Of a DNA stretch of 64,000 nucleotides, positions 11,060 to 30,119 are shown one piece after another. The notes under the pieces were generated by a model that searched no databases, had not been told where the DNA came from, and saw nothing but the letters and a program-made list of their open reading frames with translations. Source of the DNA: Roseibium sp. TrichSKD4 (lineage in GTDB: Bacteria; Pseudomonadota; Alphaproteobacteria; Rhizobiales; Stappiaceae). The position numbers were made by a program, and so were the translations under genes. Numbering within the stretch: the first letter of the stretch is position 1; each line of letters starts with the position of its first letter. Location: assembly GCF_000148725.1 (NCBI RefSeq), contig NZ_GL476311.1, forward strand, positions 379,501 to 443,500, written 5' to 3'.

Positions 11060-11728
11060 TTACTCCAATTCACCGGGTTCTGTCGCAAACTTCTCGAAGG
11101 CTTCGCGGTCGCCAGCGCAGCATCTGAACTCCAGTCTGACCGGACCAATGAGCATTTGCCCATGATTTCCATAATGCTCGTACACAATTGAAGCAGGTCC
11201 GATTTTCATGCCGGGAAATGAGAAGTGGACCATGGCTTGCTGTACGACAATTGGGCGCGATATCGGTACGTACACATGATGCCGGTGGGATCCGAAATCG
11301 AATTCAGTTCCGGGGAACCGATTGCGTAACCGATCCTTCATCATGTCCAGAAAGCCTTCGCCAAAAGCCTTTCTGGCGGCGTTGCCAGCCATGCTGTTTC
11401 TGCGGCAGTGGTGGCAACAGTAGATTCTCGACGGCTCAAAGCCGACAACTCCATCCGCGCTTAGTCCGGTCTCTTCGAGGTTATCTTCATCGACAGTCAT
11501 TCCGCATCCGTGGCATTCGAAGTGCCAGCCATCAGCTATGAGCAACCTCGCTGGCACGCCAGTCTGTTCGAATTTGTCGTATTGCTTGGCCCTGTTCACG
11601 TGCAACCCGGAGAAATCTCCGCCATTGAAGGCATTCGCACCAAACCTGCGCGCTTCGACGTTTGATTTCGCGTATATGATGCCACCCGTGTACTCTTGCG
11701 TTTCCTGAACTATGAATGCCTTATTCAT
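11060..11728 (-). CDS. hypothetical phage protein with cysteine-rich centre
   Basis: A 222-residue protein. Two CxxC pairs (CHGC near residue 72 and CCHHC near residue 105) separated by about 30 residues could form a zinc finger. The rest is mixed alpha/beta without a recognised motif. AAGG lies close to the ATG. It overlaps the upstream gene by 8 bp and ends 7 bp before the excisionase-like gene, so it belongs to the leftward early operon. Function unknown. Confidence 0.6.
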   Translation of the reverse strand: MNKAFIVQETQEYTGGIIYAKSNVEARRFGANAFNGGDFSGLHVNRAKQYDKFEQTGVPARLLIADGWHFECHGCGMTVDEDNLEETGLSADGVVGFEPSRIYCCHHCRRNSMAGNAARKAFGEGFLDMMKDRLRNRFPGTEFDFGSHRHHVYVPISRPIVVQQAMVHFSFPGMKIGPASIVYEHYGNHGQMLIGPVRLEFRCCAGDREAFEKFATEPGELE

Positions 11729-11939
11729 CGCCTTGGAATCTTTCTGACTGATTGCGCGGATCGCCGAAGATACGGCGCATCTCGCATTGGTAGTTGCCCT
11801 GGTATTCCCAAGGTGTAGCAGTTGCCTTCCCTTCGGAAATCAACTCATCGACCGCTGATATCTCGGCGCTGTCGGCCCACTCTTCTTGTATGAGTGTGCG
11901 CCCTTGGCTTAGGCCGATTTCCAACTCTTCTTTGGTCAT
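11721..11939 (-). CDS. small hypothetical phage protein
   Basis: A 72-residue acidic protein in the leftward early operon. Its end overlaps the next gene by 8 bp, typical of coupled phage genes. No motif, signal peptide or membrane segment is visible. A 125-bp gap without a gene precedes it. Confidence 0.5.
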   Translation of the reverse strand: MTKEELEIGLSQGRTLIQEEWADSAEISAVDELISEGKATATPWEYQGNYQCEMRRIFGDPRNQSERFQGDE

Positions 11940-17414: not shown

Positions 17415-17813
17415 TTAACTGGAGCCTTTTTTATTGGCCAATTTTTCCGCGTAGATCATCCAATGCATTTTAGAAAATTTGATCCTTGGTCCAGGGCCGC
17501 CCAGATACTCTTCTTCTAGCTCCTTTGCCTCTCTATATGCTTCCATAAATAGTTCTTCGTCTTCGATCCCGCTCTCAAGTAATTGGGCGGTAAAGGTAGA
17601 GTCCTTCGTAGGGCGCGTTCCAAAAATAAGCCAAGTGACGTCAACCGAGAATCTTCTGGCATATTTTGCCGCTATTTCCTCGTTAAAATCCCGGTTGCCA
17701 TTCTCATGCGAGATGTAAGTCGACAGGTTCACGCCTAGGGATTCTGCCGCGGCTGTTGCCGAGGCGAAACCTGCATCTTTCCTCGCTTTTCTCAATCGAT
17801 CATTTTTGTCCAT
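17415..17813 (-). CDS. CI-like XRE-family repressor
   Basis: A 132-residue protein counted from the ATG at 17813 (MDKNDRLRKARKDAGF), which aligns with the usual start of XRE domains; an upstream ATG at 17864 lacks a ribosome site. The helix-turn-helix covers about 5-60 (ATAAAESLGVNLSTYISHENGNR). The C-terminal half is short and acidic, with no LexA/S24 peptidase motif, so induction is not by RecA-type self-cleavage in the usual way. It is divergent from the Cro-like gene, with the operator region between. Confidence 0.8.
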   Translation of the reverse strand: MDKNDRLRKARKDAGFASATAAAESLGVNLSTYISHENGNRDFNEEIAAKYARRFSVDVTWLIFGTRPTKDSTFTAQLLESGIEDEELFMEAYREAKELEEEYLGGPGPRIKFSKMHWMIYAEKLANKKGSS

Positions 17814-17864
17814 GAATACGCCGACAGTCGTTGGTGCTGAGTTACAGCGGAGAGCTAAGCGCAT

Positions 17865-17935
17865 TTTTTCATACCATTGGTGTTGACATAAATGATACGA
17901 TACGTATCAATCGTACGAACGATTGGGGGTGCTAG
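17865..17935 (+). promoter_or_regulatory. immunity operator/promoter region (OR-like) between repressor and cro
   Basis: A rightward promoter has TTGACA at 17883-17888 and TATCAA at 17905-17910 (spacing 16). The 13-bp inverted repeat ATACG-ATA-CGTAT lies at 17895-17907, covering the spacer and start of the -10 box. A second inverted repeat, AATCGT-N4-ACGATT, is at 17909-17924. The first repeat recurs at the leftward early promoter, which identifies it as the likely repressor or Cro operator. Confidence 0.75.
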
Positions 17936-18202
17936 GTGCCTTATACGAAACTTCGTTCGATAAGAACTGCTCTTGGACTGTCTCAGGAGGCTGTGGCTCA
18001 ACAGCTTGGTACCACTCAGGCTACAATCAGCCGCTTGGAATCCGGTGTACATTCGCCCCGCGGGATGGTGCAGCGCGCAATTGAGCAATGGATAGCTGCC
18101 AAGGCGCCACTCCTGCATTCAGGTGATGGTGTTTCATCCGAGAAACAATCTTCCAATCTGCCCAATGTGTCACCCCGTAATTCCGAAGGAGCTACGGGAT
18201 GA
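17936..18202 (+). CDS. Cro-like XRE-family regulator
   Basis: An 88-residue protein starting with GTG after GGGGGTG. Residues 1-55 are a classic helix-turn-helix (LRSIRTALGLSQEAVAQQLG, TTQATISRLESGV), followed by a short polar tail. It is divergent from the CI-like gene across the operator region and is the first gene of the rightward early operon. Its stop overlaps the start of the CII-like gene. Confidence 0.8.
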   Translation: MPYTKLRSIRTALGLSQEAVAQQLGTTQATISRLESGVHSPRGMVQRAIEQWIAAKAPLLHSGDGVSSEKQSSNLPNVSPRNSEGATG

Positions 18203-23499: not shown

Positions 23500-23946
23500 G
23501 TGAGGGGTTGTGCTTGCTTGTTTCTGATGTCGCCTCCAAAATACGGTGTTTACATCAAAAATGTGGAGTCTCTCTTGGAAGACCAATTGCCGTTAAAGCA
23601 CCGATACTATTTCGACCTCATTACCGATCTGCAGGACCGCTTGATTTTTGCGTTGTTGCTAGACGATGCGAAAGCTGGTCACGCGGACGCGCCATGCTGT
23701 GGTGTGGCCGAGATCGATTTAGTAGAGGTCTCGGAAGCTATCGACATCCCTCCCGGAGAGACCTTAAGGCGAATGAAGGCGATAGCAAAACTCATCGATG
23801 GGGTGTGCGTAGAACACGACAACTTGGTGTTATTTGCTATGCCTGGTGCAGTACAAATGTTCTTTTCGCGCCTTTATGTCTCCCGCGGTTTCATTGGGGA
23901 GGCTCCGAATTTGCCTTCGGTACGCTTCCGGTACCTGCCGATTTAA
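23500..23946 (+). CDS. hypothetical phage protein, start uncertain
   Basis: The frame from GTG at 23500 encodes 148 residues with protein-like content (LKHRYYFDLITDLQDRLIFA, EVSEAIDIPPGETLRRMKAI), probably a helical DNA-binding-type fold. ATG at 23527 is an alternative start. A different frame beginning with the operon-coupled ATG at 23496 is also open to 23999 but looks non-coding (Cys/Arg/Trp-rich). Either the coupled start is unused, or a frameshift joins the first codons of one frame to the other. Confidence 0.5.
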   Translation: MRGCACLFLMSPPKYGVYIKNVESLLEDQLPLKHRYYFDLITDLQDRLIFALLLDDAKAGHADAPCCGVAEIDLVEVSEAIDIPPGETLRRMKAIAKLIDGVCVEHDNLVLFAMPGAVQMFFSRLYVSRGFIGEAPNLPSVRFRYLPI

Positions 23947-23995
23947 AAGCGTTTGCCTTTTCATTGTTGGAAGGGTGTTGGCAGGGGAGGTGTGC

Positions 23996-25270
23996 ATGAA
24001 CTCTCCCCGCCTTTCCATTATCCCTGCAAGAGCGGCGACGGACACAAGTTTAAAGCCGCGTGACTTGCAGGTTTTGTGTGTGTTGGGTCGCCATACAGAT
24101 GATTGTGGATGGTGTCGCCGTAGCCAAGTGAAGATGGCGAACGAGATGGGGTGCGCGCGCTCAACTGTGCAGGCTGCCATCGATCGTTTGATCAAGGCTG
24201 GCTATCTAGAGCGACACATACAGGAAACCGAAAACGGGCGGGATAGCGCGCATATGTTCCGCGTTATTCTGGATCCGGTCCACCCGGACATGGGGGCAAT
24301 TCCAGGGCCCGAAAACGACCTCGGAGCAGGTGAGGGAGATGCCTTTTCATCCGTAAAATTACCGTGCCGATCAGTCGGCACCCCTGCCGGTATATCGGCA
24401 CCCCCTGCCGACTCTGGGTCGGCACCTATGTTAACGACCCCACTTAACGACCCCATTGAACGGAAGAGAGAGCGCGAGGGCGAGCGGGCAAGTGCGGGCG
24501 CAAGCGGTGAGGCTGTGCCGGAAACGGCGACACGGAAAACGTGGAAAGCAAGGCTTCGTCGTGTCCATGCCGGCTGGCCAACCCATGCGGACGATAGCGA
24601 GGTGACTGCAGAGCGGGCTTGGTTTGATCTTTCGGAAGCAGATCGGGATGCGGCGGCCAAGGCGGTGCCAGCCTATCTGGCACACATGAAGGAGATCGGG
24701 CGAAAGCACTGCGTTGCGTTTTCGAAATACCTTTCCGAGAGGCGTTGGGAACGGCTTCCGGAACAAGCGGCAAGTGCCAGCGCAGCGCCAAGCACGGCAA
24801 AGCCCTTTGGCAAGGAATGGGGGGCGGTTCGCTTCGCCGATTTGATGCGGTCCCCTTATGGCCGGATCAGCGGGTTTACCCGGCTTCAAGCCGCGATGAT
24901 TGAGGCCGGGACGCTGGATCGGGAAACCGAATTGCGACGCAAGCAGGCCGCTGGTGGCTGGCCTAGCGTGAACACCATGCACGAGCGGGCCATTCGGCGG
25001 CGGCTCGGTGTTCCAGTGCAAGCGGCCTTGGCTGGTCTGGCCGAAGGGTTCACCCAAGTGAAGGTTGGCGGCGAGGTGTGGCAAGCGTGGAAGCGGCTGC
25101 ACGAAGAGCGCGGCTGGCCGTGGCTGGGTGCAGACCGCGAGCTGCCCGAATGGGTCTACATGCCCGCCTTGCCGGATGGGCACGCAGACGTGCGCGCGGC
25201 TGTTGCGGCGGCATTGGCGATTTTTGAAGCGAACTATCATCAACTGAACGCAGAAGAGGCCGCGCAATGA
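23996..25270 (+). CDS. replication-type winged-helix protein
   Basis: A 424-residue protein from the ATG at 23996 (GGGGAGG 5 bp upstream). Residues about 20-90 form a winged helix (LKPRDLQVLCVLGRHTDDCG, then SQVKMANEMGCARSTVQAAI and LIKAGYLE) of the type found in plasmid and phage replication initiators. A disordered Pro/Ala/Arg-rich linker follows (100-180), and the C-terminal half is helical, as in helicase-loading proteins. Its place near the end of the early operon fits a phage replication protein. The origin was not identified. Confidence 0.65.
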   Translation: MNSPRLSIIPARAATDTSLKPRDLQVLCVLGRHTDDCGWCRRSQVKMANEMGCARSTVQAAIDRLIKAGYLERHIQETENGRDSAHMFRVILDPVHPDMGAIPGPENDLGAGEGDAFSSVKLPCRSVGTPAGISAPPADSGSAPMLTTPLNDPIERKREREGERASAGASGEAVPETATRKTWKARLRRVHAGWPTHADDSEVTAERAWFDLSEADRDAAAKAVPAYLAHMKEIGRKHCVAFSKYLSERRWERLPEQAASASAAPSTAKPFGKEWGAVRFADLMRSPYGRISGFTRLQAAMIEAGTLDRETELRRKQAAGGWPSVNTMHERAIRRRLGVPVQAALAGLAEGFTQVKVGGEVWQAWKRLHEERGWPWLGADRELPEWVYMPALPDGHADVRAAVAAALAIFEANYHQLNAEEAAQ

Positions 25271-25869
25271 GCAAGATGGACGTAAGGGTGCAAAACCGGG
25301 CGCTTGCCAATGACTACGACTTCCTGCGTGCGCTCGTGCGCGTGAGCGCGGGGGGCTGGCTGGTTGCTTGTTGCCACCCAACAAAGGAGCAGCACGCGCT
25401 GCGTCAACTGACCGAGCGCGGGCTTTTGGCCTATCTGCCGATGAGGCCGGGGAGACGCAGACAGCCACGCTGCAAGAAGATGATTGACAATTCGCAGCCG
25501 CTTATTCGTGGATACTTGTTCGTCTGTACAGACTTTTCCACGGGAAGTGTTGTTGATGAAATCCTGTCTTGCGGATGTGTTTCCGGTCTTCTGTCATTCC
25601 GGGCTGACAAGTATCCGCACAGGGTGCCATCGGCGCGTGTGGTGGATATCATTGATCATTGTGAACAGCTTCAAACAGGCGGAAAACCGCAGAAAGCAAT
25701 CGGTTTTGATATTGGCTCCAAGGTGCGTTTGATCGCTGGCCCGATGGAAGGATTTTCTGCTGTGGTGACGGGATATGATCTTGCGAAAGCACGGGTGCAG
25801 GCCGAAGTGAAAGGCGAGTGTGTTTCCATGCCTGTGAATGTCCCGGTTGACATATGCCGGGAAGCCTGA
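25267..25869 (+). CDS. NusG/RfaH-like protein, candidate late antiterminator
   Basis: A 200-residue protein coupled to the replication-type gene (ATGA). Residues about 28-115 fit the NusG N-terminal domain (GGWLVACCHPTKEQHALRQL, then PLIRGYLFVCTDF); residues about 147-180 contain a KOW motif (IGSKVRLIAGPMEGFSAVVTG). NusG paralogues bind RNA polymerase and act as processive elongation or antitermination factors. It is the last early gene; immediately downstream is a leader with an intrinsic terminator in front of the head genes. That arrangement suggests a Q-like role, which is inference. Confidence 0.8.
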   Translation: MSKMDVRVQNRALANDYDFLRALVRVSAGGWLVACCHPTKEQHALRQLTERGLLAYLPMRPGRRRQPRCKKMIDNSQPLIRGYLFVCTDFSTGSVVDEILSCGCVSGLLSFRADKYPHRVPSARVVDIIDHCEQLQTGGKPQKAIGFDIGSKVRLIAGPMEGFSAVVTGYDLAKARVQAEVKGECVSMPVNVPVDICREA

Positions 25870-26081
25870 GAGTTTTTACGGCAGGACAACTCGTTGAATC
25901 CCCGTCACCTGGGCTTGACCCTCTGGTCGCTACACCAAACAGACGTGAGACGGGCGGCGAACCCAGCCAACAATAAACGCCGGAGCGGCGGAGTTGGTGC
26001 GGTGGGTTTTTATGGAAAATTTCAAGACATATCGCAACTGGCCCGCGTCATGCGGGCCTTTTTTGGTTCAGGTGATGGGCA
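25870..26081 (+). promoter_or_regulatory. late leader region (structured, non-coding)
   Basis: About 210 bp without a plausible gene between the NusG-like gene and HNH. The first 120 bp are rich in short complementary GC blocks and may fold in RNA. It ends in an intrinsic terminator (26040-26064). No strong sigma70 promoter is evident. It may act as the loading or response site for antitermination of the late operon. Confidence 0.45.
26040..26064 (+). terminator. intrinsic terminator in the late leader
   Basis: Stem GGCCCGC (26040-26046), loop GTCAT, stem GCGGGCC (26052-26058), then six T (26059-26064). A canonical rho-independent terminator placed upstream of the whole head-tail operon and after the NusG-like gene. 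Confidence 0.85.
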
Positions 26082-26456
26082 GTGCGTTACGATAGGCGCA
26101 GCGCGGAGGCTGAAGAATACCGCAAGCGTTATAAGACCGCGCGTTGGCGCAAGCGTCGGGCAGCTCATTTGCAACAGGAGCCGTTGTGCCGGATGTGTTC
26201 GGCGGCTGGATTGGTCAATGATGGCTCTCGTAAGATGGACGGAAGCTTGCAAGACAATCCGCGTCGGCGGTTTCTCGTTGCGGATCACATAAACCCGCAC
26301 AAAGGCGACGCCTACAAGTTTTACCTTGGCAAGCTGCAAACGCTCTGCCCGGATCATCACGACATCGTCAAGCAGGCGGAAGAGCGCAGAGGTTTTGTCT
26401 GCGATGCCGGTGAAGATGGATGGCCAACGGACCCAATGCACCCTGCCAACAGGTAG
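26082..26456 (+). CDS. HNH endonuclease
   Basis: A 124-residue protein starting with GTG 17 bp after the terminator. Features: CRMCSAAG (zinc knuckle start), then FLVADHINPHKGD and LQTLCPDHHDIVKQ, giving the HNH core with paired CxxC-type ligands. Small HNH nucleases next to terminase genes are needed for DNA packaging in HK97-type phages, where they work with the terminase at cos. Confidence 0.8.
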   Translation: MRYDRRSAEAEEYRKRYKTARWRKRRAAHLQQEPLCRMCSAAGLVNDGSRKMDGSLQDNPRRRFLVADHINPHKGDAYKFYLGKLQTLCPDHHDIVKQAEERRGFVCDAGEDGWPTDPMHPANR

Positions 26457-26573
26457 GGGGGCGGGTCGAAAGTTCACAACCCTCCCGCCAAGGACCGGTG
26501 GGTGAGGGTTTTTGTACAAAAAGTCGAAATTGGAGACAAAAAGCCACCTTTGTTGAAGGTGCGCTGAAGAGCC
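26457..26573 (+). other. inter-gene region with strong hairpin before terminase (candidate cos or terminator)
   Basis: Arms AACCCTC (26478-26484) and GAGGGTT (26504-26510) enclose a GC-rich partially paired centre and are followed by three further T. It is either a second late-leader terminator or part of the packaging site, which in HNH-terminase phages lies close to terS. The two readings cannot be separated from sequence alone. Confidence 0.45.
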
Positions 26574-27044
26574 ATGCGCGGACGTAAATCTGAAAATGAA
26601 AACGTCGTTCCTCTGACCGGTGCCGAAGCGCATCAAAATGTGCAGGAGCGCGGGAAGCAGCTTGCGGCTGATCTCAAGCCGGATTGGCTGACCCCAGCCG
26701 GTTCGAAGGTTTACGACCGGATTGCGCCGCATGTTGCCGCCCCAACAGTCGCGCGGCTTGCATGGCACAATCTGGAAGCCTTTGTGCTGATGTGCGAGGC
26801 GCTTGCGCGTCATGAGCAATTGCGGAAATACATCAACACCCCCGGTGTTGGTGAGACTTACGTCAGCGAAACGCGCAATGGCGAGCAAATAAAAAACCGG
26901 CCAGAAGTTGGGCAACTCAATGAAACGTTTCGGCAATTTCTGACCTTGGCGCGAGATTTCGGGTTAACGCCTGCAGCTGAACGCGGTCTGCGGTCTGTTG
27001 CTCCGCAGGGCGACCTTCCATTTGACGATGGCGATTTTGCGTGA
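26574..27044 (+). CDS. terS: terminase small subunit (P27 family)
   Basis: A 156-residue protein. The order, a basic N-terminus (MRGRKSENENVVPLTG), a helical region (LTPAGSKVYDRIAPH) and the C-terminal segment FGLTPAAERGLRS, is typical of P27-type small terminases. It recognises the packaging site and hands DNA to the large subunit, encoded next with a GTGA overlap. Confidence 0.85.
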   Translation: MRGRKSENENVVPLTGAEAHQNVQERGKQLAADLKPDWLTPAGSKVYDRIAPHVAAPTVARLAWHNLEAFVLMCEALARHEQLRKYINTPGVGETYVSETRNGEQIKNRPEVGQLNETFRQFLTLARDFGLTPAAERGLRSVAPQGDLPFDDGDFA

Positions 27045-28831
27045 CACGAACTGACCCAGAAAAGGATCCGGTGACCGCATGGGCCGAAGATGTTCATGCT
27101 GGACGGATTCTGGCCGGACCACATGTGCGAAATGCAGCTGAGCGGCATTTGAAGGATCTGGACACCGCCTGTGACCGAGGTTTTGTTTGGGACGTTGATG
27201 CTGCAAAGGACGTGATCGGTTTTTTTCATCGCCGGTTGCGCCTGAACGGCGGAGACTTTGAGGGCAAGCCTTTTCATTTACATCCATCGCAGCAATTTCG
27301 GGTCGGGTCGCTCTTTGGTTGGAAAAATGTTGAAACAGGCTTGCGACGGTTTCGCAGGTTCTATGACGAAGAGGGAAAGGGCAACGGCAAATCTCCGATG
27401 CTGGCCGGGATAGGCATCGTTGGTCTGGTGAAAGAGCGTGAGCCGCGCGCAGAAGTTTATGCGGCAGCGTCTAAAAAAGATCAGGCGCAGATCCTGTTTA
27501 AGGATGCCGTCGCCATGGTGGACCAGTCGCCAAGCTTGAAAAGCCGGATCAAGCAACTTGGGATCGATCCGGTTTACAGTCTTGTCTACCGTGCGGGCGA
27601 TGGTGGTAAGCGAGAGTTCAAACCCATTTCGAAAGACAGCGGGCAATCCGGTCCGCGCCCCAGCATGGCGCTTTGCGATGAGGTGCATGAGCACCGTGAT
27701 CGATCAACGATTGAAATGCTTGAGCGCGGCTTCAAATTCCGCAAACAGCCCCTCCTTTGCATGGCGACCAATTCCGGTACAGACCGCAACTCCATTTGCT
27801 ATGAGGAACATACACACGCGATCAATGTCGCAGCTGGCTTGGTTGAGGATGACACGACTTTTGCTTTCGTCTGCTCGCTTGATGAGGACGATGATTGGGA
27901 AAACGATCCAAGTTGTTGGGGTAAGCCGAATCCACTTCTTGGAAGCATTCTTACTGAGAAGTATTTGGCGCTTCAGGTAGATCAGGCAAAAAAAATGCCT
28001 GGCAAGCGAAATGGCATTGCGCGTCTGCATTTCTGCGAGTGGACGGATGCGGAAACAGCGGCGTTTTCACGGGCAACCTGGATGGGTTGCCTTGGTGAAG
28101 TTGAAATGGCTTCTCTGGTCGAGGCTGGTTATCGCTGTTTTGGTGGGTTGGATCTGTCACGTGTACGGGATTTCACGGCCTTCACCCTGACATGGGTGTT
28201 GGATGAAGCCCGTGACAGCCAAGTTTTTGCATCAAAGACATGGTTTTGGACGCCAAAGAATACGCTCCGCCAAAGGGCGGCAGAAGATCGTGTTCCATAT
28301 GACCGGTGGGTGGATGACGGGCATATCGAGGCGGTTAAGGGTGACAGGATTTCCTATCGCTGGGTGGCTGAGGCTCTGCAGGAAATTTGCGCTATCGCCC
28401 ATCCGGTTGAAATCGGCTGTGACCAATACGGTCTTGAAAATCTCCAGGACCATTTGAACGACATCGGTGCAGATTTGCCGATGACGATCCATCCTCAGGG
28501 GTTTCAAAAGCGGATCATCGAGAAAGATGATACCCAGCCGGAAGGTGCGCAGGAAGTCTATTTGTGGATGCCGGATTCCATCAACAAGTTTGAAAACGCG
28601 ATCTATGAAGGGCGCATTCGCATCCACCCCAATCCAATGATGAACCACTGCGCATCTTCGGTCACCTATGCGGAAAACCGGACTGGTCATCGCATGTTCG
28701 ACAAGTCCAAGGCTCTTGGACGTATTGATGGGATGGTGAGCCAGGCAATGTCCATCGGTGTTGCGACTTGCCGGGAAAAACGCGTGGTAGAGCCTTCCGT
28801 CTATAAGCGCCGTGGTTTGTTGAAGGTTTAA
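27041..28831 (+). CDS. terL: terminase large subunit (HK97-type)
   Basis: A 596-residue protein starting with GTG inside the terS stop. The ATPase part shows a Walker A-like EEGKGNGKSP at about 112-121 and Walker B SMALCDEVHEH at about 207-217. The nuclease part begins GGLDLSRVRDFTAF at about 366-379, with further acidic residues later (GCDQYG). It pumps DNA into the prohead and cuts it. Length and motif order are normal for the family. Confidence 0.92.
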   Translation: MTRTDPEKDPVTAWAEDVHAGRILAGPHVRNAAERHLKDLDTACDRGFVWDVDAAKDVIGFFHRRLRLNGGDFEGKPFHLHPSQQFRVGSLFGWKNVETGLRRFRRFYDEEGKGNGKSPMLAGIGIVGLVKEREPRAEVYAAASKKDQAQILFKDAVAMVDQSPSLKSRIKQLGIDPVYSLVYRAGDGGKREFKPISKDSGQSGPRPSMALCDEVHEHRDRSTIEMLERGFKFRKQPLLCMATNSGTDRNSICYEEHTHAINVAAGLVEDDTTFAFVCSLDEDDDWENDPSCWGKPNPLLGSILTEKYLALQVDQAKKMPGKRNGIARLHFCEWTDAETAAFSRATWMGCLGEVEMASLVEAGYRCFGGLDLSRVRDFTAFTLTWVLDEARDSQVFASKTWFWTPKNTLRQRAAEDRVPYDRWVDDGHIEAVKGDRISYRWVAEALQEICAIAHPVEIGCDQYGLENLQDHLNDIGADLPMTIHPQGFQKRIIEKDDTQPEGAQEVYLWMPDSINKFENAIYEGRIRIHPNPMMNHCASSVTYAENRTGHRMFDKSKALGRIDGMVSQAMSIGVATCREKRVVEPSVYKRRGLLKV

Positions 28832-28835
28832 CGCG

Positions 28836-30119
28836 ATGGGTTTGATGTCAGCTCTCAAACGGTTTGGCGCATCCAAGGATAGCTCCAAACCGCGAAATGC
28901 GATGCAGTCTGATGGCGGCGGGAAGCTCATTAGAACCATCCAGGAGCTGGAAGAGGTGATCTCAGGTGGCGCTGAAACCAAATCAGGTGCGCGCGTAACA
29001 CCTGAAACGGCTATGCGGGTTGCCGCCGTTTTTGCCTGCGTGCGGATTCGGTCCAGTGTTGTGGCAAACCTGCCGTTGCAAATAAAGCGACGTGTTGATG
29101 ATGACACCCGTAAGAACGCATTTGATCATCCATTGTGGACAATCTTTACAAAACGGCCAAACCGGTGGCAGACGCCATCCCAATTCAAAAGAATGCTCGA
29201 AGCACACTTGCTATTGCGCGGGAATGCCTTTGCGAAAATTATTCGTGGGGTCAGAGGTGACGTTCAGGAGCTTATTCCATTGCACCCGGATAGGGTGACA
29301 ACCAGGCAGTTGGATGATCTTTCGATTGTGTATGAGTATCAGCGGCGCGATGGTCGTACCATTCCTTTCGGGCAATCAGATGTTTTCCATCTTGTCGGAC
29401 TTTCTCTGGATGGCGTCACAGGTGTTTCGGTTATTAAATACGCGCGCGAAACCATTGGTCTTGCCATCGCCCAGGAAGAGCATGGTGCTTCTGTATTCAA
29501 GAATGGAGCACGGGTCAGCTTTGTTCTAAAGCACCCGCAATCACTTGGTGAGGAAGGCGTTGAGACGCTCCGCAAGAGCCTGAATGCCTTTCGCGCGGGT
29601 GGGGAAAATGAAGGTGAAGCGCTCATTCTCGAAGAGGGCATGTCAACCGAAGCGCTTGCAATGACGGCGGAAGATGCGCAGTGGCTGGAAAGCCGCAAAT
29701 TCTCGCGAACAGATATTGCGATGTTTTTCGGCGTACCGCCTCACATGATTGGCGACACAGAAAAATCGACCAGCTGGGGAACGGGTCTTGAGCAACAGAC
29801 CCAAGGGTTCAAGACTTTCAGTGCTGAAGACGATTTCACCACTTGGGAAGAAACAGTCAATCGAGATTTGATTTCAGATGATGAGCCTGACCTTTACGCG
29901 CGCTTCAATCGAAACGCCTTGGTTCAGGGCGATATGAAGGCTCGCAAAGAGTATTTCACATCCATGCTCCAGTGGGGTGTTTTCTCGCCAAATGAGGTTC
30001 GCAAACTGGAAGATATGAACCCGCGCGAGGATGGCAACATATACTACCCGCCGCCCAATACCGCTGGAACTCTTGCAAACAAAGAAGGAGAAGGCCGTGA
30101 GTCTGCGGACGCTACCTGA
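28836..30119 (+). CDS. portal protein (HK97 family)
   Basis: A 427-residue protein with the typical segments AMRVAAVFACVRIRSSVVANLPLQ near residue 50-75 (split here for length limits), LLLRGNAFAKI, and SRKFSRTDIAMFFGVPPHMIGD. It forms the dodecameric ring at the head vertex through which DNA passes. It is followed by the protease gene, which begins inside its last 23 bp. Normal length. Confidence 0.9.
   Translation: MGLMSALKRFGASKDSSKPRNAMQSDGGGKLIRTIQELEEVISGGAETKSGARVTPETAMRVAAVFACVRIRSSVVANLPLQIKRRVDDDTRKNAFDHPLWTIFTKRPNRWQTPSQFKRMLEAHLLLRGNAFAKIIRGVRGDVQELIPLHPDRVTTRQLDDLSIVYEYQRRDGRTIPFGQSDVFHLVGLSLDGVTGVSVIKYARETIGLAIAQEEHGASVFKNGARVSFVLKHPQSLGEEGVETLRKSLNAFRAGGENEGEALILEEGMSTEALAMTAEDAQWLESRKFSRTDIAMFFGVPPHMIGDTEKSTSWGTGLEQQTQGFKTFSAEDDFTTWEETVNRDLISDDEPDLYARFNRNALVQGDMKARKEYFTSMLQWGVFSPNEVRKLEDMNPREDGNIYYPPPNTAGTLANKEGEGRESADAT

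Follow-up and report, generated by a model that had tools for sequence, protein, structure and literature searches.

The DNA analysed (the window) is a stretch of 64,000 nt from Roseibium sp. TrichSKD4 (contig NZ_GL476311.1, positions 379,501 to 443,500), and the locus described here lies on its plus strand. A gene at 23834..25270 encodes an HTH_36 protein of the phage replication-initiation type (Pfam PF13730, E 9.3e-9; phrog_270, E 3.2e-36). It is the last gene upstream of a NusG-like gene (25267..25869), the start of which overlaps its end. The NusG-like gene is followed by a structured RNA element (25881..26015), an intrinsic terminator found by terminator scan (26040..26064), and an HNH endonuclease gene, the first late gene (26082..26456; phrog_2323, E 2.3e-24). 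The genes for the small and large terminase subunits (26574..28831; PF05119, and PF03354 with PF20441) then begin the head-tail operon. The order of terminator and head-tail operon is thus as the initial annotation had it. Farther upstream, at 17415-18202, divergent ORFs with a TTGACA at approximately 17884 between them look like an immunity switch and early promoter.

The product of the NusG-like gene (200 aa) carries an NGN domain (PF02357 above the cut-off), with which the fold model agrees, and a KOW domain, as had been proposed from the open reading frame. The model contains an extra N-terminal helix, and structure comparison placed the modelled N-terminal domain nearest to RfaH. The protein matched NusG/KOW families alone in Pfam and PHROGs, its relatives of solved structure are NusG, Spt5, RfaH, and other KOW proteins, and the PHROGs label of its family is antiterminator. 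Assignment to a Q protein family was considered and rejected, because only NusG/KOW families were matched. Used as a single query, the protein matched just one viral contig, in which its sequence is identical, and had no match in the genome contigs. A protein profile run on 87 genomes separated paralogue matches (E <= 4.5e-20) from the next-best matches (4e-16 and weaker). The paralogue is also distinct from housekeeping NusG in a tree of 62 proteins (L148 and L201 omitted), in which the proteins of R-type loci (18), those of S-type loci (38), and host NusG (6) each formed one group.

Related loci were collected with the terminase as guide, the best 80 of 109 terminase relatives being kept; 22 of these carry a NusG paralogue upstream of TerL, and behind the NusG stop in many of the 22 lie related GC-rich leaders, then a hairpin with a T run. 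More loci were added by means of protein profiles, a DNA pattern, and genome regions, and the leaders were split into an R type, to which the window belongs, and an S type. Eighteen of the 23 R leaders considered were kept, after removal of four near-duplicates and one without a recognised end; the set also excludes further near copies (such as L109, L110, L271, and L277) and L254, which is truncated. The S leaders were reduced from 60 to 40 at 90% similarity. Eight NusG-bearing loci with a different or incomplete leader (L005, L006, L057, L069, L076, L080, and the S-like L035 and L087) were set aside, and the element-less paralogues of genomes G025 and G074 also lie outside the leader counts. 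All leader fractions given below are among loci with a recognised element; the loci are related to one another, their counts are not independent, and the R and S leaders were found with different queries and are not a blind sample. A relative of the HTH_36 gene lies upstream in 15 of the 18 R-type and 35 of the 40 S-type loci, and some of the others have little upstream sequence.

Structure and covariation of the leader RNA

The leader between the NusG-like gene and the terminator had been described as GC-rich and foldable. The predicted folding energy of 25883-26015 was no better than that of shuffled sequences (z 0.25; z -0.94 with the terminator included), and a claim of significance from single-sequence energy was accordingly rejected. 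A comparative test of the leader was therefore required. The predicted optimum for the window leader contained P2 without P1, and with the terminator removed neither helix was formed.

The R-type alignment (A4) comprised 17 of the 18 distinct R leaders, L270 being omitted. Its consensus contains 20 pairs in three helices. The closing helix P1 (25891-25896 / 25955-25960) is stacked on P2 (25901-25906 / 25949-25954), the two spanning 25891..25960, and P3 (25962-25963 / 26004-26005 and 25966-25971 / 25993-25998) occupies 25962..26005. Across the alignment 97.6% of the cells were paired (shuffle mean 81.0), and 13 pairs had changes on both sides, with 63 such cells against a shuffled mean of 19.7. 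On each of the five measures used, all 500 shuffles scored lower, and when one partner was slid by 1-3 columns pairing dropped to 28-46%. Both sides had changed in 11 of the 12 pairs of P1 and P2, and in 2 of the 8 pairs of P3, where changes were mostly one-sided. The S-type alignment (A5) was limited to the long-middle form (19 of the 40 distinct S leaders), as short and divergent forms would misalign. It gave 26 pairs, 95.3% paired cells, and 12 pairs with changes on both sides (46 cells; shuffled mean 12.5); none of 500 shuffles reached it on four measures, and 18 of 500 did so on the fifth (further pair types). The leaders of relatives, which the initial annotation had suggested comparing for conserved RNA structure, thus hold strong compensatory changes in both types, and its GC-rich leader is a covarying RNA element and not a passive stretch, although its folding energy is unremarkable.

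The element comprises 131 positions (approximately 130 nt). In both types a covarying closing helix is followed by P3 and then by a conserved end with CTATG or TATGG, and this shared layout, as judged by eye, suggests that R and S leaders are homologous. Nine of the 40 S leaders (e.g. L016, L122, L131, L175) have a 6-bp hairpin, with loop UACA in five and UACG in four, that precedes the 3' strand of P1 and would compete with it; this hairpin is possibly a switch between two folds, or a LoaP-like site of the UNCG type.

Covariance models were used for searching. The R-type model (R1) matched the window element with 114.3 bits (E 1.8e-30), the window sequence itself being one of its 17 training sequences, and this was the sole strong match in the window. 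The best other R1 match there (12.5 bits, E 0.06, minus strand, 11622-11736) was taken as chance. The S-type model (R2) did not match the window, and R1 strongly matched just the three R loci among the 80 terminase loci (best 80 of 109). At the gathering score Rfam had no match in the window or in nine related loci; the best sub-threshold match at the leader reached 21.1 bits, where the gathering score is 41.

Signals flanking the element

The initial annotation saw no obvious promoter for the late operon. A TTGACA hexamer, the -35 of a proposed late promoter, is present inside the 3' end of the NusG-like coding sequence (25847..25852), and its conservation at a fixed spacing to the RNA speaks against that view. 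A weak -10 position, GAGTTT (25870..25875; 17-nt spacer), is suggested by column conservation and is a poor match in the window copy. Counted from the start of the element, 16 of the 18 R leaders and 38 of the 40 S leaders have a TTG at -38 to -31; spacing was analysed in these rows alone, where the TTG is in frame. The hexamer of the 16 R rows is TTGACA in 11 and TTGACG in 5, and its distance to the GGA of the element varied with a standard deviation of 0.60 nt, against 2.60 for the distance to the stop codon. In the S rows the -35 and the stop codon each keep a fixed distance (sd 0.89 and 0.48, respectively), and it is the R type that carries the argument from spacing.

Codon choice at the -35 is likewise biased: a T-ending Val, Leu, or Ile codon is found there in 53 of 58 rows, compared with 517 of 2170 (23.8%) elsewhere in the same genes (binomial figure 1e-27, with kinship of the loci ignored). 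Among the R rows, A at -13 and T at -8 are each present in 12 of 16, and the -10-proximal spacer columns (-18 to -14) show almost no conservation (IC <= 0.12); in the S rows, positions -11 to -9 are rich in A and T. A TTGACA also stands at the same distance in the orphan element L289, which lies outside any NusG gene. Since the -35 is conserved at a fixed distance from the RNA, late transcription most likely starts with the element, and a putative promoter belonging to the late operon itself probably lies across the 3' end of the NusG-like gene. A strong promoter behind the terminator, which would have spoken against antitermination, was not found by a scan from 26064 to 30000; one weak site was recorded at 29101.

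Terminators were scored within 85 nt after the element. A relaxed rule recognised one behind 11 of the 18 R elements and 34 of the 40 S elements (45/58), compared with 11/1909 and 29/4860 control stretches of the same loci (40/6769); this rule was devised after short T runs had been seen in hairpins missed by the strict rule, and was applied equally to the controls. With the strict rule the numbers were 10 of the 18 R leaders and 11 of the 40 S leaders, compared with 10/958 and 17/2441 controls (27/3399). Even under the relaxed rule, seven R leaders (of 18) and six S leaders (of 40) lacked a recognised terminator behind the element. In L246 a tRNA-like sequence, recognised by eye, follows the element in place of the terminator.

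Linkage of element and paralogue

Among the 87 genomes, all of one family, the element lies immediately behind 23 of the 27 paralogue matches (E <= 4.5e-20). The four without it comprise three in G025, a single genome with seven NusG paralogue matches (L251, L272-L277, L293), and one in G074. The reverse search, with R1, gave 28 matches in these genomes, 13 of which are training rows and several more near copies of training rows; 23 lie right behind a paralogue, one is beside a degraded copy, two are strong orphans, and two are weak and by eye look decayed. A scan of viral contigs with a leader pattern that was blind to the protein gave at least 120 matches. Of those listed, 42 lie within 260 nt behind a NusG paralogue, and the rest were judged by eye to be three leaders cut by contig ends and 75 that look like chance. 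Within the best 80 of 109 terminase loci, strong R1 or R2 matches (E <= 2e-7) were found in 15, every one of which carries a NusG paralogue. Of the 22 loci with the paralogue, seven matched neither model. No element was found in the 58 terminase loci without the paralogue, 16 of which hold less than 1.2 kb upstream of TerL. Protein type and RNA type coincide on the tree, the 18 R rows and the 38 S rows each falling on one side of a branch.

Loci L090, L092, L104, and L111 have the same paralogue, leader, and terminator, with no relative of the window HNH, TerS, or TerL genes in the 1.3-4.9 kb downstream, so the paralogue-leader-terminator module seems to be mobile as a cassette. The first of the strong orphans (L295:18952-19082, minus strand, same as L289) has its own TTGACA promoter sequence; an HTH_36 gene of the replication type and an integrase gene (PF00589) come after it within approximately 5 kb, a satellite-like arrangement. 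Its genome, G036, has a NusG-plus-element locus on another contig. The second (L297:5376-5507, plus strand, same as L290) lies on a plasmid-like 14-kb contig with genes for RepA_C, MobA/MobL, a ParA-like protein, an integrase, and Abi_2. In several terminase relatives without NusG (L004:5948-6793, L017:6212-6904, and the like) a protein of 230-285 aa occupies the same slot before HNH and is possibly another late regulator. A Q-type protein was considered for this slot and rejected, as none of 10 ORFs from 8 of the 23 listed loci matched in Pfam; in PHROGs two of them belong to phrog_9306 (unknown function) and eight had no match.

Proposed mechanism and known systems

We consider it quite likely that the locus encodes a late-gene antitermination switch in which a phage NusG paralogue is paired with an RNA of its own. 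The NusG-like protein would be the product of the last early gene, and from the promoter over the 3' end of its gene a short RNA would be made, with the element formed by the first ~130 nt of that RNA. While the protein is lacking, polymerase would halt at the terminator at 26040-26064. Once accumulated, the protein would be recruited to the polymerase via the newly transcribed element, perhaps during a pause close to the conserved TATG end, and would remain there, as NusG relatives do. Polymerase modified in this manner would pass 26040-26064 and later terminators into the head-tail genes. The model thus predicts that the protein binds the RNA, that read-through occurs and depends on the protein, and that the effect lasts along the operon. 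The reading is guided by LoaP, a precedent for an RNA-guided NusG paralogue acting at an intrinsic terminator. The earlier proposal that a NusG-like protein does the job of lambda Q is strengthened by the joint recurrence of paralogue, structured RNA, and terminator in distant phage loci, but its operon lacking a promoter gives way to one that probably has its own.

It is unlikely that the element acts on RNA polymerase alone in the manner of HK022 put, the NusG-like protein being a general anti-pausing helper. The element is at the proposed transcript start, just as putL is located just downstream of PL (PMC9378689), and the two strong orphans have no NusG paralogue upstream; one orphan genome (G031) has a host-NusG-class match only, although the other (G036) carries the paralogue elsewhere. 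The close linkage to NusG and the clade-for-clade match of protein and RNA instead suggest a partner pair; an RNA acting alone in cis needs no partner, and would presumably need another control of timing. Recruitment of the protein by DNA, either as RfaH is by ops or as Q is between -35 and -10, with the RNA serving for example RNA stability, is improbable. The resemblance of the modelled N-terminal domain to RfaH and a promoter-proximal layout that is the same as in lambda Q would fit it, but ops-like sites within two mismatches of the motif were found in 0 of 18 R and 4 of 40 S leaders, the spacer proximal to the -10 is scarcely conserved in the R rows, and the helices of the leader covary. 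An attenuator is very improbable; in that case the late leader would be under repression, by the NusG-like protein or by some other signal, or else the terminator would simply keep early and late genes apart. Terminators do also act as insulators, and autoregulated operons place the protein gene directly upstream. In B. subtilis, moreover, intrinsic termination can be enhanced by the housekeeping NusG (PMC8060035). But the head and tail genes behind the terminator must be made, and the characterised paralogues LoaP and RfaH are antiterminators (PMC7819879, PMC12691694).

More broadly, a tentative and rather doubtful extension of the antitermination switch would be a new class of antitermination RNA, with two subtypes co-evolving with two clades of phage NusG and governing late control across alphaproteobacterial temperate phages, in which orphan copies in integrase/replication elements and plasmid-like contigs let satellites use the paralogue of a helper phage. 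The occurrence of NusG paralogues on prophages is already known (rfaH-like genes are noted there in PMC7593976), as is the PHROGs antiterminator label of the family. The RNA element, its promoter, and its pairing with the protein did not turn up in searches of an open-access library that lacks preprints and most subscription journals; nor did a phage late switch combining NusG and RNA. If the proposed switch is correct, phage late control can operate through a captured NusG paralogue with a dedicated RNA, beside the DNA-loaded proteins of the Q type. It would also offer a compact, testable system for target choice by specialised NusG proteins, for which LoaP is the RNA-guided example found, and suggests that some prophage 'NusG' annotations would mark late operons. 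The proposed switch recurs as an arrangement in many related phage loci and is easy to test, and the many covarying leaders with matched proteins permit direct tests of protein-RNA recognition.

Several known systems share parts of this arrangement. RfaH is a NusG paralogue, and its NGN domain is the closest to the modelled domain of the window protein; it is recruited by ops DNA (PMC12691694) and is described as rather inefficient against intrinsic terminators (PMC7819879), whereas the 18 R leaders hold no ops-like site. A boxA-like site was likewise found in none of the 58 leaders (18 R and 40 S). GafZ, of the Caulobacter gene transfer agent, resembles the proposed switch in the antitermination of a head-tail cluster in an alphaproteobacterium; it is not a NusG paralogue, and is proposed to bind promoter DNA from -10 to -35 together with host NusA, NusG, and NusE (PMC11150451). 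The put RNA of HK022 is, like the element, a promoter-proximal antitermination RNA of a phage, but it is approximately 70 nt long, consists of two stem-loops, and acts on early genes as RNA alone (PMC9378689), whereas the element here has 131 positions, with P1/P2 and P3, and precedes late genes.

The layout in lambda is similar in that a late promoter, a short leader, and a terminator adjoin the regulator gene, a likeness that here is one of sequence only. Q is the last early gene. In lambda and phage 21 the late promoter PR' is followed by a short leader, the terminator tR', and the late genes, and Q, which has an HTH motif, binds DNA between -35 and -10 (PMC6606751). A NusG fold and an RNA element stand here in place of the HTH protein and its DNA site. 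LoaP of Bacillus velezensis binds an RNA hairpin in the dfn and mln leaders, and read-through requires that hairpin (PMC12691694). As judged from sequence, the two systems share a NusG paralogue, a structured leader RNA, and an intrinsic terminator before a long operon. A UNCG-type hairpin is present in none of the 18 R leaders, the type of the window, and a TNCG hairpin of at least 4 pairs is present in 6 of the 40 S leaders, four of the six having the same hairpin (loop UACG). LoaP serves antibiotic operons of Firmicutes through a small UNCG hairpin; the arrangement described here precedes a phage late operon, with a three-helix element of approximately 130 nt.
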